A DNA stretch of 64,000 nt, from contig NZ_JALJRZ010000001.1 of NCBI RefSeq assembly GCF_024519435.1, positions 868,001-932,000 on the forward strand, in the 5' to 3' direction. Source of the DNA: Terrabacter sp. Ter38 (GTDB taxonomy: Bacteria > Actinomycetota > Actinomycetes > Actinomycetales > Dermatophilaceae). Shown piece after piece: positions 29,780 through 36,347 of this stretch. The position numbers were made by a program, and so were the translations under genes. The notes beneath the pieces are model-generated. The model was not told the DNA's origin and ran no database searches. It worked only from the letters and a program-made list of their open reading frames with translations. Every line of letters begins with the position of its first letter. Within the stretch, counting starts at the first letter, position 1.

Positions 29780-30493
29780 GTGACCGACAACACCTCCGTG
29801 CGCCAGGATCCCCAGCAGACGACGACGGCGACCCGGGACCGTGCCGAGTCGAGCACCACGACGGTCGGTCGGGCCTTCACGGCTGCCGACCGCGGCGCCG
29901 GTCCGCAGGCCCGCGGCGTCGACGCCCAGTCGGTCGCCCTCGTCGCCGTCTTCACGGCGCTCCTCGTCGCGGCCGCGGTCGTGCCCGGCATCCCCGTCGG
30001 CGGGTTCGGCGTGCCGATCACGCTGCAGACCCTCGCCGTCGTGCTCACCGGGCTCGTGCTCGGCCCGCTCCGCGGCGGTCTCGCCGTGGCGCTCTACCTG
30101 CTGCTCGGCTTCGTCGGGCTACCGGTCTTCAGCCGGGGTCAGTCTGGCCTGCAGGTGCTGAGCGGACCGACGGCCGGCTACCTCGTGTCGTTCCTCGTCG
30201 CGGCGCTCCTCGTGGGGGTCGCCGCCCGAGTGGTCGTCCGACGCACCAACCGGTCGCTCTGGGTGCCGCTGCTGCTGTTCGCCTCCTTCGCCACGACCGT
30301 CGCGGTCGTCCACACGCTCGGGGTCGTCGGGCTCATGGTCAACCTCCGGCTGCCGCTGTCGGCTGCGATCAGCGCCGACCTGCCCTTCCTCCCGGGCGAC
30401 CTCGTCAAGGACGTCGTCGCCGTCGTCGCCGCCGTCGCCGTGCACCGCGCCTTCCCGGACGTCCTCGCGCGCCCGTGGCGCTCCCGCGCGTGA
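29780..30493 (+). CDS. bioY: Biotin ECF transporter S component BioY
   Basis: The predicted protein has 237 residues from GTG 29780. A 45-residue polar N-terminus precedes six membrane helices. Family marks are GIPVGGFGVPITLQTLAVVLTG, GLAVALYLLLGFVGLPVF, GPTAGYLVSFLVAA, and the final FLPGDLVKDVVAVVAAVAV. BioY binds biotin in the membrane and works with the energising module BioM-BioN. All three genes are consecutive here, giving a dedicated ECF importer. No biotin synthesis gene or BirA is in view. Confidence 0.94.
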   Translation: MTDNTSVRQDPQQTTTATRDRAESSTTTVGRAFTAADRGAGPQARGVDAQSVALVAVFTALLVAAAVVPGIPVGGFGVPITLQTLAVVLTGLVLGPLRGGLAVALYLLLGFVGLPVFSRGQSGLQVLSGPTAGYLVSFLVAALLVGVAARVVVRRTNRSLWVPLLLFASFATTVAVVHTLGVVGLMVNLRLPLSAAISADLPFLPGDLVKDVVAVVAAVAVHRAFPDVLARPWRSRA

Positions 30494-30500
30494 CCCGTCC

Positions 30501-31211
30501 GTGACGGAGGTCAGCCTCGAGGCTGCGACGGTGGCGGTGCCCGTCGACGGCTCCCCCGGGCAGCGGACGCGCACCATCCTCGGGCCCGTCGACCTCGTCC
30601 TGACCGAGTCCCGGGTGACGGTCATCGGCGCCAACGGGTCAGGCAAGTCGACGTTGCTCCGCCTCCTCAACGGCCTGGTCACCCCGACGTCGGGCACCGT
30701 GACCGTCGACGCGCTCGACACCGTGCGTCACGGGGCCCGCGTGCGCCGCCGCGTCGCGTTCGCCTTCACCGACCCGATCTCCCAGCTCGTCATGCCCACC
30801 GGGCGCGAGGACGTCGAGCTCTCGCTGCGGCGCCTGCACCGATCGCGCACCGACCGCCGGGCCGCCGCCGAGCGGGTTCTCGAGCGCTTCGGGCTGGCCC
30901 AGCTCGCCGACCAGAGCGTCTACGACCTGTCCGGGGGTGAGCGCCAGCTCATGGCCCTCGCCGTCGTCCTCGCCACGGAACCGGGCCTGCTCGTCCTCGA
31001 CGAGCCGACGACGCTCCTCGACCGACGCAACACCCTCCGGCTGCGCTCCCTGCTCGACTCGCTCCCCCAGTCCGTCGTCGTCGCGACCCACGACCTCGAC
31101 CTCGCCCTCCACGCCGACCGGACCCTCGTCGTCGACGACGGGCGCATCGTCTTCGACGGTGAGCCGGCGACGGCCGTGGAGCGCTACCTCATGTTGTCCG
31201 ACGCACCGTGA
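30501..31211 (+). CDS. bioM: Biotin transporter ATPase BioM (ECF A component)
   Basis: The predicted protein has 236 residues from GTG 30501, 7 bases after bioY. It shows ABC ATPase motifs: Walker A VIGANGSGKSTLLRLLNG, Q-loop near PISQLVMPTG, signature VYDLSGGERQLMALA, Walker B GLLVLDEPTT, and the switch His in VVATHDLDLAL. ECF ATPases couple ATP hydrolysis to movement of the S component through the T component. The gene ends in a GTGA overlap with bioN. Confidence 0.93.
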   Translation: MTEVSLEAATVAVPVDGSPGQRTRTILGPVDLVLTESRVTVIGANGSGKSTLLRLLNGLVTPTSGTVTVDALDTVRHGARVRRRVAFAFTDPISQLVMPTGREDVELSLRRLHRSRTDRRAAAERVLERFGLAQLADQSVYDLSGGERQLMALAVVLATEPGLLVLDEPTTLLDRRNTLRLRSLLDSLPQSVVVATHDLDLALHADRTLVVDDGRIVFDGEPATAVERYLMLSDAP

Positions 31212-31879
31212 ACGGTCCCGGCCTGTTCACGGCGCACGTCCCCGGCACGTCGGTGGTGCATCGAATGCCGCTGTGGCTCAAGCTGGTCGGCGTTCTCGCC
31301 GTCGGGGCGATGCCGTGGTTCACGCAGTCGGTGTGGCCGCTCGCCGTCACGACGATCGTCCTGGTCGGAATCGTTCTGGCAGCCCGCCTGCCGGGCCGCC
31401 GTCTCGTGCGGTCGATGCGTGGGCTCCTCCCCGTCCTCGTCGTCCTGCTGGCCTTCCAGTGGTGGTCGCGCGACGTCGCGTATGCCGTCCGCGTCGTCCT
31501 CGGCATCGTCAACGCGTTCGTCGCGGCGGGCATCCTCACGGCGACGACGCCGGTCACCGACCTGCTCGACGGCGTCGTGCGGGCGGCCCGCCCGCTGCGT
31601 CGCGTCGTCGACCCCGAGGTCGTGGCGCTCACCCTCGGTGTCGTCGTCCGTTCGGTGCCCTGGGTGGCCGGATCGTTCTCCAGCGTGCGCGAGTCGGCCC
31701 GTGCCCGAGGCCTCGACCGCGATCCTCGCGCCGTCGTCGTGCCGACCGTCGTGCACGTCGTCGCCTTCGCACGGTCGACGGGTGAGGCCCTCGCGGCCAG
31801 AGGTCTCACCGACCCGGCCGACGACGAGGACGCTCCCGGACCGGACGGACCGGGAGCGTCGTCACGGTCGCCTGACTAG
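31208..31879 (+). CDS. bioN: Biotin transporter permease BioN (ECF T component)
   Basis: The predicted protein has 223 residues from GTG 31208. Five or so hydrophobic helices are followed by the two short coupling motifs of EcfT proteins, SARARGLD and ALAARGLTD, which contact the ATPase. A terminator hairpin lies inside the last 17 codons. Its TAG stop (31877-31879) is shared with the TAG stop of the convergent malic enzyme through the palindrome CTAG. Confidence 0.9.
   Translation: MNGPGLFTAHVPGTSVVHRMPLWLKLVGVLAVGAMPWFTQSVWPLAVTTIVLVGIVLAARLPGRRLVRSMRGLLPVLVVLLAFQWWSRDVAYAVRVVLGIVNAFVAAGILTATTPVTDLLDGVVRAARPLRRVVDPEVVALTLGVVVRSVPWVAGSFSSVRESARARGLDRDPRAVVVPTVVHVVAFARSTGEALAARGLTDPADDEDAPGPDGPGASSRSPD
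31829..31860. terminator. Terminator hairpin inside the 3' end of bioN
   Basis: A perfect 11-bp stem, GACGCTCCCGG/CCGGGAGCGTC, has a 10-base loop. It lies within bioN codons and 16 bases beyond the malic-enzyme stop on the other strand, so it can terminate leftward transcripts and attenuate rightward ones. Confidence 0.65.
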
Positions 31880-33221: not shown

Positions 33222-34514
33222 TCAGGCGTGGGCCGAGGAGCCGAGGGACTTCAGGAGTGCGTCGACGACGCGCGGGTCGTACTCGTAGCCGAGGCCGAGG
33301 TAGATGCGTTCGACGGCTGCCTCGCGCGCCCGCGCGCTGCGGGCCCCGGCCGTGAGGTCCTCGTAGGCGTTGACGACCTTGACGATGCGGCTCGTCAGGG
33401 GGATCTCCTCGCCGAGCTCGCGCACCTGGCGGTAGGGCGTCGTCTGGTGCTCGAGGATCCGCGCGACCCCCTCGAAGACGCCGGTCTCTCGGACGATGGC
33501 GACGGTGTCGGCCTCGATGCGACGTTGGTCTGCCGGCGCCGCCAGGACCGTGGCGCCACCGGGGATCGGCTCGACGAGGGCCACCTGTCCGATGTCGTGG
33601 AGCAACGCGGCGTACTCGAGGTCGAGCAGCTCGCGCTCCGACAGGCCCAGCTCGCGGCCCACCTGGACCGACAGGGCTGCCACCCGCTCGGAGTGCCCGG
33701 ACGGGGTGTAGCCGGCGGCGTCGGTCAGGCGCGAGAGCGTCCGGATGCTCTGGAGGTAGGTGGCGCGGATGCTGACGTAGCGGCGGAACGCGAAGAGCGT
33801 CAGCACGAGCGGGATGAGGAAGAGCGGCAGGGCCGCGATGCCGAGGGGTGGGGCCGCGAGCGCGATGAGGACGCCCGTGACCGCGACCGCGATCGACAGC
33901 GCGAACGACGAGCGGAACTCCTCGATGAACGTCCGACGCACGTTCGCACCGGCCGACAGCCCACGGAGCAGGGAGGTGAAGAGGGCATCCGTGACGAGGG
34001 CCAGAAGGCAGATCCCGAGCAGCAGGGCAGCCTGCTGCCACGGAGCGGCCGCCATCTCCCGGGCAGGCTCGCCGGGTCGCTGCCCGAGCACCAGCACGCG
34101 GTAGACGATCGTGGCCACGACGATGGCCACGAACCGGCCGGCCGTGTCGACGAGGCTCGTGTCGCGGCGGGCCGCGACCCGCACGGTCGTCCCGAGCGCC
34201 ATCGCTGCCGCCGTCACCGTGAGTGCGAAGGGGGCGCCGTAGGGAACGGCGACATCGCCGGGAAGCTCGGTGGTGAGGCCCAACCCGAAGGCGGCTGCCA
34301 TCGCGATGGGGGCCGCCCCCCGGAAGCCGGGGGCCGAGATGTGGAACCACTCACCGAGCACGATCGTGACGCCGAAGGCCGCGACGACCCAGACCGTGGT
34401 CGAGTCGTTCAGCGAGGGGACGTCCCCGGTCTGGATCGCGGCGAGGGCCGACGCGAGCAGGCAGAGGACCCCGAGGACCCCGGCCACCGGCTCACGTCTC
34501 AGGGCGCCGTTCAC
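33222..34514 (-). CDS. Membrane HD-domain phosphohydrolase, HD-GYP-like with degenerate GYP
   Basis: The predicted protein has 430 residues from GTG 34514, overlapping the upstream HD gene as GTGA. About 8-9 N-terminal helices form a membrane sensor-like module. The C-terminal 190 residues are an HD-GYP-type domain: HSERVAALSVQVGRELGL, catalytic ALLHDIGQVALV with the HD pair intact, and NAYEDLTAG. Where GYP would lie, the sequence reads ILEHQTTPYRQV, so the HHExxDGxGYP motif is lost. HD-GYP proteins hydrolyse cyclic di-GMP or related nucleotides. Activity here is uncertain. It pairs with the next gene, which shows the opposite pattern. Confidence 0.82.
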   Translation of the reverse strand: MNGALRREPVAGVLGVLCLLASALAAIQTGDVPSLNDSTTVWVVAAFGVTIVLGEWFHISAPGFRGAAPIAMAAAFGLGLTTELPGDVAVPYGAPFALTVTAAAMALGTTVRVAARRDTSLVDTAGRFVAIVVATIVYRVLVLGQRPGEPAREMAAAPWQQAALLLGICLLALVTDALFTSLLRGLSAGANVRRTFIEEFRSSFALSIAVAVTGVLIALAAPPLGIAALPLFLIPLVLTLFAFRRYVSIRATYLQSIRTLSRLTDAAGYTPSGHSERVAALSVQVGRELGLSERELLDLEYAALLHDIGQVALVEPIPGGATVLAAPADQRRIEADTVAIVRETGVFEGVARILEHQTTPYRQVRELGEEIPLTSRIVKVVNAYEDLTAGARSARAREAAVERIYLGLGYEYDPRVVDALLKSLGSSAHA

Positions 34515-35830
34515 GAGGCCACCTCCGCTGGTGCCGACGCGGGCCATCCGTGCTTGTCCAGCGCGACGATGGCAGCGGCCACGACGTCGGGGTCGAAGCG
34601 TCCCGGGTCGGCACGGAGCCGGCGCGCGACGTCGGCGATCGACACGACGGGTGCGGCGTCGGGGTCGCGCACGACGTCGTCGATCGCGGTCGTGACGGCG
34701 ACGATGCGCGCGGCGACGGGGATGGCGTGGCCGGCCTGGCCGTCGGGCCGGCCCGTCCCGTCGAAGCGCTCGTGCTGGTGACGGATGCCGGACCGCGCGT
34801 CCTCGAGGAAGTCGATGCCCTCGATCATCCGGGCGCCCACGACGCAGTGGCCGTCGATGACCCGGCGCTCGGTGGGGCTCAGCGAGGACGGGGACCGGCG
34901 CAGCAGTCGGGTGGCGACCCCCAGGTGGCCGATCTCGTGGAGCGTCGCGGCATACCGCACTGTGCCGATCTGGCCCGGTGGCAGGCCGAGCTCCTCGGCG
35001 ATCCACTCGGCGAGGACGGCCGCGCGCCGACTTCGGTCCACGGCGGCGGGCTCCTTGGTGCCGAGGGCGGTGACGAGGGTGTCGATCGTCCGTTCGTGCG
35101 AGCGGAGCTCCTCGCCGTACTGGATGAAGGCCCAGCGGGCAGCGAGCAGCGGCGCGAGGACGAGCAATGCACTGAAGGCGCCGAGTCCTGCAGGGAACCA
35201 GAGGATGACGAACAGCAGGCCGATGATGCCGTAGCCGACGTAGGCGACCCCGGATCCGCTGAGGACGCGGCGGAGCTGGACGCCGAAGGGAATCCCCTGG
35301 TCGAGGTGCAGGACGCCGGAGATGAGGCTCGCGTTGACGAGGCAGCCGACCACGTCGGCCGCGAGCAGGGGCAGTCCGACGTGCAGCCCGAGCTGGGCGG
35401 TGCTCATGTGGGTCATGGCGGAGCCCTCGGCGCCGCCGAGCAGTCGGTAGGTCAGGGCGGCGGCAGCGCCGAGCAGGCCGCACATGGCGGCGTTGAACAT
35501 CGTCGCCGTCCACCGCGGCTGACGTCGGTCGATGAGCATCGACACGGAGCCGACCACCCACGCGCCGAAGACGCCGACGATGGCGGCCGAGGCGACGAGG
35601 ATGATCGACAGGAACGAGAAGCTGATCCGCAGTCCGACGTCGGGTTCGCGGATCTGGAAGCTGACGATGCCCATGAGGCACAGCAGCAGAAGAGGTCCGA
35701 GCTCGGGTCGGGGCAGCACGAGCCAGGACGCCACTCCGGTGGCGATCGAGGTCGCGACGACGAGCGCGAGATAGGCCGGCAGCCACCGGGACCTGACGGT
35801 TGCGGTGGCTGCCTGACTCACATCAGTCAC
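34511..35830 (-). CDS. Membrane HD-domain protein, GYP-like motif kept, HD changed to HE
   Basis: The predicted protein has 439 residues from GTG 35830. Roughly eight membrane helices (ALVVATSIATGVASWLVL onward) precede a C-terminal HD-GYP-like domain. The first half reads RRAAVLAEWIAEELGL and AATLHEIGHLGVATRLL, with HE where catalytic HD is expected. The second half keeps HCVVGARMIEG and HQHERFDGTGRPDG, close to the HHExxDGxGYP signature. The two HD genes overlap by 4 bp and look like a duplication whose copies have lost different halves of the active site. Confidence 0.82.
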   Translation of the reverse strand: MTDVSQAATATVRSRWLPAYLALVVATSIATGVASWLVLPRPELGPLLLLCLMGIVSFQIREPDVGLRISFSFLSIILVASAAIVGVFGAWVVGSVSMLIDRRQPRWTATMFNAAMCGLLGAAAALTYRLLGGAEGSAMTHMSTAQLGLHVGLPLLAADVVGCLVNASLISGVLHLDQGIPFGVQLRRVLSGSGVAYVGYGIIGLLFVILWFPAGLGAFSALLVLAPLLAARWAFIQYGEELRSHERTIDTLVTALGTKEPAAVDRSRRAAVLAEWIAEELGLPPGQIGTVRYAATLHEIGHLGVATRLLRRSPSSLSPTERRVIDGHCVVGARMIEGIDFLEDARSGIRHQHERFDGTGRPDGQAGHAIPVAARIVAVTTAIDDVVRDPDAAPVVSIADVARRLRADPGRFDPDVVAAAIVALDKHGWPASAPAEVAS

Positions 35831-35838
35831 GGTAGCGC

Positions 35839-35875
35839 GACGGCACCGGGGTCTTCAGGGAACCCCGGTGCCGTC
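35839..35875 (-). terminator. Terminator of the 30-codon gene
   Basis: A perfect 14-bp stem, GACGGCACCGGGGT/ACCCCGGTGCCGTC, has a 9-base loop. It begins 19 bases after the stop of the small gene and ends just before the GTG start of the downstream HD gene, so the small gene appears to be its own transcript. Confidence 0.8.
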
Positions 35876-35893
35876 CAGCGGCTCTGGAGGGGC

Positions 35894-35986
35894 TCAGCCG
35901 CCCCAGCCCCAGACGCCGGCGAGGGAGATGATGGCGCGGGTGGCGAGGTCGTTGGACGCGAGTGCCGACAGGAGGGCAGCGAACAT
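35894..35986 (-). CDS. 30-residue hydrophobic peptide of unknown function
   Basis: ATG 35986 to TGA gives 30 codons: M-F-A-A-L-L-S-A-L-A-S-N-D-L, then ATRAIISLAG and a tail VWGWGG. Support for a real gene is good. AAGGAG lies 7 bases before the ATG, 28 of 30 codons end in G or C as in neighbouring genes, and a strong terminator follows the stop. Residues 2-23 could form one amphipathic or membrane-lying helix with near-zero net charge. The tail has two Trp and four Gly in eight residues. I recognise no family. A membrane-active, signalling or leader peptide are all possible. A palindrome overlaps its probable promoter. Confidence 0.72.
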   Translation of the reverse strand: MFAALLSALASNDLATRAIISLAGVWGWGG

Positions 35987-36115
35987 TGGGGGGCTCCTTG
36001 TTAGATGGATGTTCCGGATGCGTGCGCCATTGGAGGGGCGTTGCTACGGCAGCACAGAACAACAGAGGTTTCCCTCGATGCTCAGGATGCCTTGCGCGCG
36101 GGGGCGCATGGAAGC

Positions 36116-36141
36116 AGATCCGGCCTATTCATGCCGGATCT
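36116..36141. promoter_or_regulatory. Palindrome overlapping a candidate promoter of the small gene
   Basis: AGATCCGGC and GCCGGATCT (9-bp arms, 8-base spacer) form a 26-base palindrome 130 bases upstream of the 30-codon gene. In leftward orientation the box TATAGAT (36138-36144) merges into its first arm, and the AT-rich run TTAAAATC lies just upstream. This fits a repressor operator over a -10 box. A 5' leader hairpin is the alternative. Confidence 0.45.
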
Positions 36142-36272
36142 ATACGAAGATTTTAAGGTTCGCAGGGCGACCCCGCGACCAATTGGGCCGCTCGCGCCGG
36201 ATGTGGAAGAATCGGGTCTTCGTGTCCCGCACCGGGGCCCGAGACCAGGGTACGACCCATTAGGAGCCGACG

Positions 36273-36347
36273 ATGAGCAAGCGCGCCCGCAAGCGCCGCT
36301 CCCGCAAGGGCAACGCCGCCAACCACGGCCGCAAGCCCAACGCCTGA
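36273..36347 (+). CDS. Ribosomal protein bL37 (24 residues)
   Basis: ATG 36273 to TGA encodes 24 residues, beginning MSKRARKRRSRKG and ending NHGRKPNA, with TAGGAG six bases upstream of the start region. It matches the 24-residue actinobacterial large-subunit protein bL37 seen in mycobacterial ribosome structures in length, in the KR-rich start and in the ANHGKRPNA-type end. It sits near the decoding-distal 23S rRNA region in those structures. Its position beside the SigH-type sigma/anti-sigma pair is conserved in mycobacteria. A terminator follows immediately. Confidence 0.9.
   Translation: MSKRARKRRSRKGNAANHGRKPNA

Follow-up and report, generated by a model that had tools for sequence, protein, structure and literature searches.

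The stretch of DNA analyzed here, a 64,000-nucleotide segment of the genome of Terrabacter sp. Ter38 (hereafter the window), carries on its minus strand, at 35894-35986, a gene of 30 codons plus a stop codon, MFAALLSALASNDLATRAIISLAGVWGWGG, whose product ends in the tryptophan (Trp) motif VWGWGG. Its sequence and its conservation in relatives confirm that this short peptide gene is real, and we regard both the gene and its bond with HD1, a gene for a membrane protein with an HD-GYP-like domain, as beyond reasonable doubt. The peptide is the local member of a class-wide, hypervariable and apparently undescribed family of short Trp-ended peptides, represented under ~19 family labels in total. 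Neither the window peptide nor nine other forms had a match above the curated cut-off in Pfam or NCBIfam, and a full-text literature search found no paper on such Trp-tailed peptides. On balance, we lean toward the idea that the gene encodes the precursor of an exported signal peptide that is sensed by the neighboring HD1.

A peptide gene bonded to HD1

A sequence-only reading of this DNA had pointed to a leftward open reading frame (ORF) preceded by AAGGAG seven bases before its ATG, with 28 of 30 codons ending in G or C and a near-neutral product, and each of these features is present, the net charge being 0. The AAGGAG Shine-Dalgarno (SD) sequence (35994-35999, minus strand) is invariant in 10 aligned leaders. 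All nine genomes of the genus, Ter38 included, encode the ORF with in-frame length changes, so that it must be more than a chance frame; the named relatives that carry it are Terrabacter and other Intrasporangiaceae. The outcome that would have refuted the sequence-only reading, absence of the ORF from close relatives, was not seen. At the level of codons, ten Terrabacter-type sequences gave a pooled ratio of nonsynonymous to synonymous polymorphism (pN/pS) of 0.55 and variable codon positions of 18/13/19 in 29 codons; this evidence is modest, so that the case for the peptide gene rests on the wider comparison. Across both strands of the window, it is the sole SD-preceded ORF of 15-60 residues that has two Trp residues separated by one residue (W-x-W) with no more than six residues after them.

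The same reading had proposed a 14-bp terminator after the stop codon; a terminator-like hairpin is indeed found there (35838-35874, minus strand), but it has 15 bp and is without a T run. In relatives this region differs in sequence yet appears hairpin-like by eye. Also as described, a 26-base palindrome (36116-36141), self-complementary at 20 of 26 positions, overlaps a TATAGAT box, and the region proposed as the gene's own promoter is conserved in relatives. Among ten sequences compared, the palindrome keeps 7-9 of its 9 arm pairs (G-T counted), as expected of an operator or an RNA hairpin. The putative promoter core CTTAAAATCTTCGTATAGAT (36138-36157, minus strand) holds two -10-like boxes, TAAAAT (36150-36155) and TATAGAT (36138-36144).

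HD1 (34511-35830, minus strand) lies downstream, and the gene that we take to be bL37, the name having come with the sequence-only reading, is the divergent landmark of the locus in this bacterial family (36273-36347, plus strand; located by motif search). With profiles of the peptide, matches were obtained in other genera of the family as well; in all 18 loci tested there, bL37 lies upstream in divergent orientation, and HD1 is downstream. Conversely, starting from HD1, all 18 named loci have an upstream ORF of ~30-40 residues with W-x-W and at most four further residues, and an SD-like sequence was recognized by eye before each. The suspected link to the downstream HD gene thus holds over many families; the gene, thought to be isolated, proved instead to represent locally a hypervariable family that spans the class.

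At E<=1e-20, HD1 matches were found in 167 of 186 genomes of the family, and 110 of these 167 loci were examined. A W-x-W-tailed ORF with an SD sequence was present in 55 of the 110, a few of which (e.g., G042 and G104) may be spurious, and most of the remaining loci have an ORF with a single C-terminal Trp, such as ...IDIVSWED; in G050, the HD1 start is mis-set at a contig end. As controls, we used the antisense strand and dinucleotide shuffles of the 106 family HD loci in which bL37 was located. Between bL37 and the HD gene, a W-x-W tail occurred in 53 of 106 loci, compared with none on the antisense strand and 0.05 per shuffled set. A Trp no more than seven residues from the ORF end occurred in 99 of 106 (14 antisense, 12.7 shuffled), a criterion with ~12% background. 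In eight further loci of 8-9.5 kb each, W-x-W-tailed SD ORFs were present in five, exclusively before HD1, and in the remaining three (L292-L294) the peptide has another kind of tail. There was no convincing Trp-tailed gene beside bL37 in the 11 genomes examined among the 19 of the family that are without an HD1 match (bL37 was located in 12), although one of the 11 has little flank and five have Trp-ending ORFs that we judged to be antisense or inside other genes.

In 296 genomes of the class, the HD1 profile at E<=1e-20 matched 122, some in the HD domain only. Outside the family, where 119 genomes had such a match, we examined 68 loci taken from the better matches, many of the others matching in the HD domain only. 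With SD and length limits slightly different from those used within the family, a W-x-W tail was found in 31 of 68 loci (2 antisense, 0.3 shuffled) and a Trp at most five residues from the end in 52 of 68 (5 antisense, 10.6 shuffled). At least seven of the 68 loci were mis-scored by the script though the peptide is present, owing to contig ends or SD distance (G218, G245, G267, G302 and G468) or because a 13-residue ORF was overlooked (G217 and G189, a chance ORF being scored instead in the latter). A class-wide search with the Terrabacter-type profile (A4) returned, apart from Ter38 itself, mainly noise, including many 32-codon frames aligned solely to profile positions 14-28. Weak matches in the family (L033-L046 and L082-L089) were left out of the homologue counts.

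Three forms recur outside the family. The first, found in many families, has 20 residues (M[KS]KI..AVE.FL......W.W; alignment A7), whereas the other two are a hydrophobic form ending in GWSWW and one ending in GISWT. When the 20-residue profile was run against 292 genomes, an HD1-adjacent copy was found in all 30 genomes with E<=1e-6. A second copy is present on a different contig in both G228 and G245, and in G245 it is followed by an HD1-like N-terminus.

Variable cores, Sec-like signals and leader RNAs

The contrast between conserved and variable parts is clearest in one genus (g44), in which the leader MKAITTIFESIL is common, with minor variation (mean entropy of 0.28 bit across 12 positions), to eleven genomes, while the same 11 genomes have 11 distinct seven-residue cores, two of which differ by one residue, and in these cores the two Trp residues alone are invariant. 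An identical core is repeated in 5 of the 11 genomes, e.g., RGWTWTG twice; in G149, both ends of the repeat are altered. More generally, cores are repeated 2-5 times per precursor in several forms. In G172, a Sec-like signal is followed by four copies of GYTWQG, and in G160, three ORFs have 5, 4 and 5 copies of YHNWEPKA. The four tandem ORFs of G092 share the C-terminus GPVSIWGWGG. We note that tandem peptide genes precede HD1 in these two genomes, four at L147 (G092) and three at L149 (G160). WWW cores are found before HD1 at L181 (G021), L182 (G018), L161, L162 and L199, being repeated in three of the five loci; these forms resemble trp leader peptides.

Eleven Sec-like precursors were found among the W-x-W matches (14 pattern matches, three of which were removed by eye), and eight more were identified by eye. 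A Sec-like signal sequence can stand directly before the tail, as in ...APAQAAQAPEASTQGWEWGS, an assignment made by pattern and eye. Copies of repeated or shared cores were compared in 18 sets, of which 13 have silent differences, four are identical in DNA and one has a single amino-acid change. Since the copies were picked by amino-acid pattern, only the silent divergence between them is informative, and the pooled core pairs, with 116 synonymous differences, are not independent. Repeated or hypervariable cores together with signal sequences are expected of precursors of released peptides and not of a leader peptide that acts by stalling. The sequence-only reading had suggested a short membrane or signaling peptide; what is conserved in all forms is not a membrane helix but the Trp motif at the C-terminus.

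Peptide genes of two types, the Terrabacter type and the 20-residue type, are preceded by conserved leader RNAs without a match in Rfam. The Terrabacter-type leader (35981-36080, minus strand), which the sequence-only reading had overlooked, has 86% mean column identity in 10 genomes and a predicted GAGG-GAAA-CCUC hairpin with a multibranch helix; a block of ~70 bases 5' of the peptide start is better conserved than the peptide sequence. When a model of this leader (R1) was run on 34 further loci of the family, it had four weak matches at E<=1 (0.00028, 0.034, 0.32 and 0.67); they are in loci of other genera and all lie, as read from their coordinates, at the start of the peptide gene. When 15 matches were aligned, 97.1% of cells could pair, 9 of 23 pairs had changed on both sides, and the covariation score was reached by none of 500 shuffles. 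This is support rather than proof, because the sequences were aligned by fitting them to the model and most of the changes are contributed by a few distant members. In addition, the window leader taken by itself does not fold more stably than shuffled sequences (z -0.42), which speaks against the structure, while the whole 304-base stretch including the hairpins has a z of -2.15. Rfam had no match to the window stretch at E up to 1.

The 20-residue form has a leader of its own, AGCGGAGCGGAU...hairpin...GUGAC, upstream of the peptide genes (L307-L335). In its stem, 98.8% of cells pair, with 15 double changes and none of 500 shuffles scoring as high; its 5' flank may pair with the SD region, for which a permutation p of 0.003 is suggestive. 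Run against 197 genomes, a model of this leader (R2) had matches in 34 at E<=0.05 and in 32 at E<=1e-4, in one place each except in G228. The 32 stronger matches precede a peptide gene, which in G193 is cut by the contig end. Because its matches sit once per genome, before the peptide gene, the 20-residue leader is not a widespread riboswitch. R2 matches also led to still shorter peptides, e.g., MFKMLLEPGVSWR, some forms having 13 residues. Rfam had no match at the gathering cut-off in 15 loci of the 20-residue type, and in nine loci searched with the limit relaxed to E 5 there were seven matches, all far below gathering scores; a microRNA-family match overlapping the leader in L027, likewise far below its gathering score, was taken as chance. 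A second conserved block, GCTGCCGATCCCC, lies between the 20-residue peptide stop and HD1 (L307-L366), and might pair with the leader or the SD sequence.

The proposed receptor and rival explanations

The Pfam domain HD_5 matches HD1 at 3e-25, and the structural model of HD1 (pLDDT, its predicted local confidence, 91.9) predicts an N-terminal membrane domain followed by a domain whose fold, in a structure search, matches HD-GYP domains (E 8.9e-8). The class consensus of HD1 carries the canonical HD-GYP catalytic motif, HDIGK...HHHER.DG.GYP. We suggest tentatively that the membrane domain of the model resembles the S components of ECF transporters, its best match being chain S of 4huq, an ECF transporter; RibU (5kbw), FolT (9kym) and BioY (4dve) match lower.

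According to the explanation that we favor, the gene would encode a precursor from which a short exported signal arises, with a transcript of its own controlled by the promoter dyad and the conserved leader, and with the C-terminal Trp motif, here VWGWGG, as the active part. Once translated and processed, the peptide would be released or displayed outside the cell and bind HD1, which would sense it through the ECF-S-like membrane domain. Binding might then change how active the HD-GYP-like domain in the cytoplasm is and, in turn, the level of cyclic di-GMP (c-di-GMP) or a related nucleotide, while the core sequence would differ between species in the manner of pheromone types. We prefer a signal read by HD1 because it joins the hypervariable and repeated cores, the export signals and a membrane sensor in a single scheme. 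Its extension to the whole class is offered more hesitantly, as something that may well be true but that we would not assert: across the Actinomycetes, hypervariable and sometimes multicopy secreted Trp-tailed peptides could be the ligands of an ECF-S-like/HD-GYP receptor, such that the peptides of neighbors set c-di-GMP, with structured leader RNAs controlling expression.

Several points weigh against the signal reading. The Terrabacter window peptide has no signal sequence. The match of the HD1 membrane half to 4huq chain S, at a template modeling (TM) score of 0.67, has a weak E of 0.08. The window HD1 is degenerate, and since HEIGH and GRP replace the canonical residues, its enzymatic activity is uncertain. 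The motif patterns for the linkage counts were chosen after the data had been seen, and the counts are not independent because the loci are related. Nine genomes of one family (f26) have HD1 but, among the loci examined, no credible peptide; in several of these loci, what is presumably an RsrA-like C-terminus lies just upstream.

Chief among the rivals is a cis-acting leader peptide, in which stalling at the C-terminal Trp codons or at a nascent-chain motif switches an RNA and controls HD1, the peptide itself having no job. The position of a short ORF directly upstream of HD1, with Trp close to the stop in most forms, would suit it, as would the existence of forms as short as 13 residues, and both the covarying conserved RNA before the ORF and the block after the 20-residue ORF would also be in keeping with a leader peptide. 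However, up to five core repeats, tandem genes and Sec-like signals are needless for stalling. Furthermore, in Terrabacter a strong hairpin separates the peptide unit from HD1, and HD1 seems to have a TANNNT box of its own just before a start of the leaderless type. We therefore consider a cis-acting leader unlikely, albeit the most serious competitor. A small intracellular or membrane partner, inserting in the membrane and directly modulating HD1 like small auxiliary subunits do, would agree with the many short hydrophobic or amphipathic forms (Terrabacter, the GWSWW type and the SWED type), but sits poorly with Sec-like precursors that have repeated cores and with charged 20-residue forms such as MKKIVTAVEQFLQSGANWKW, which makes it, in our view, decidedly unlikely.

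Precursors with several cores, like hypervariability of the cores, are typical of antimicrobials and modified natural products too, for which the HD proteins could serve as regulator or immunity. Methyltransferase domains (L288 and L294) or a signal-peptidase-like ORF (L291) do lie within a few kb in single loci, scattered like the secretion ATPase domains (T2SSE) of L289 and L290; but no modifying enzyme recurs throughout the eight wider loci among the 50 of 65 predicted ORFs scanned against Pfam, and the near-universal presence of the peptide in the family HD1 loci examined is unlike that of accessory bacteriocins, so we give a secreted antimicrobial little chance. Least probable of all, and to our minds scarcely credible, is a type I toxin or dual-function regulatory RNA: a short hydrophobic peptide beneath a long conserved leader is what one would look for, yet the linkage to HD1, the charged forms and the repeats are unsuited to it.

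Among the other features of the neighborhood, HD2 (33222-34514, minus strand; assigned by domain match) encodes another membrane HD protein and is arranged in tandem with HD1; its model was poor (pLDDT 69.6, five sequences) and was not used. A second membrane HD gene after HD1 is also found in the wider class loci L287-L290. All four of these loci encode an ECF-type sigma factor as well, and three a zf-HC2 protein. Genes with the SRAP domain, which is named for SOS-associated peptidase, recur in four of the wider loci and are part of the neighborhood. Neither an exporter nor a processing protease recurs in all eight wider loci, within the ORFs scanned. On the plus strand of the window at 29780-31879, ~3 kb from HD1, there are BioY-like (by eye), ATP-binding cassette (ABC) ATPase and CbiQ/EcfT-type genes, which probably constitute an ECF transporter.

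Significance and comparison with known systems

If the signal reading is true, much of the Actinomycetes possesses a peptide language that has gone unrecognized, in genes too short for easy annotation that, in many families, stand beside a stress sigma factor region. Cell-cell signaling would then be tied directly to an HD-GYP protein, an orphan membrane sensor would gain its ligand, and species-specific, simply synthesized peptides would become available for probing development and antibiotic production. Should the peptide turn out to act in cis alone, it would still be unexplained why so small an ORF has stayed next to one receptor gene in ~19 families, accompanied by two conserved leader RNAs for which Rfam has no match.

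Ms1/scr3559, an intergenic RNA-like gene that is conserved in Actinobacteria, has a similar size, and the RNA-like intergenic conservation beside an HD gene made it our first idea for this locus. It was dropped because the flanks differ: those of Ms1, as published, are HAD-IB hydrolase and oxidoreductase genes (PMC9130861), whereas here they are bL37 and HD genes. The C-terminal domain of HD1 is predicted to share the fold of HD-GYP phosphodiesterases such as PA4781 (4r8z) and DvhD (9rbz), but the window HD1 differs from them in its HEIGH/GRP residues and its ECF-S-like membrane domain, and its activity may differ as well. Unlike ECF S components, the membrane domain of HD1 is fused to a signaling domain, and its tentative likeness to them lies in the predicted fold.

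In design, precursors that place identical cores in tandem behind a signal sequence (G172 and G033) are reminiscent of fungal alpha-factor-type precursors, whose multicopy arrangement is mentioned in an earlier publication (PMC6339444), although the peptides studied here are bacterial, much shorter and centered on Trp. The closest parallels may be the Gram-positive quorum-sensing pairs (agr, ComQXPA, Rgg-SHP and RRNPP), in which, as here, the precursor gene adjoins the gene of the receptor, in our case a proposed one, and a conserved leader is joined to a variable C-terminal core. Dependence on Trp is also seen in ComX and some SHP-type peptides. For ComX, isoprenylation of the Trp residue is reported (PMC5331326). 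What sets the present system apart from these pairs is that its proposed receptor is an HD-GYP-like membrane protein, rather than a histidine kinase or an intracellular regulator, that no processing gene was found to be shared beside it in the ORFs scanned, and that its hosts are Actinomycetes.
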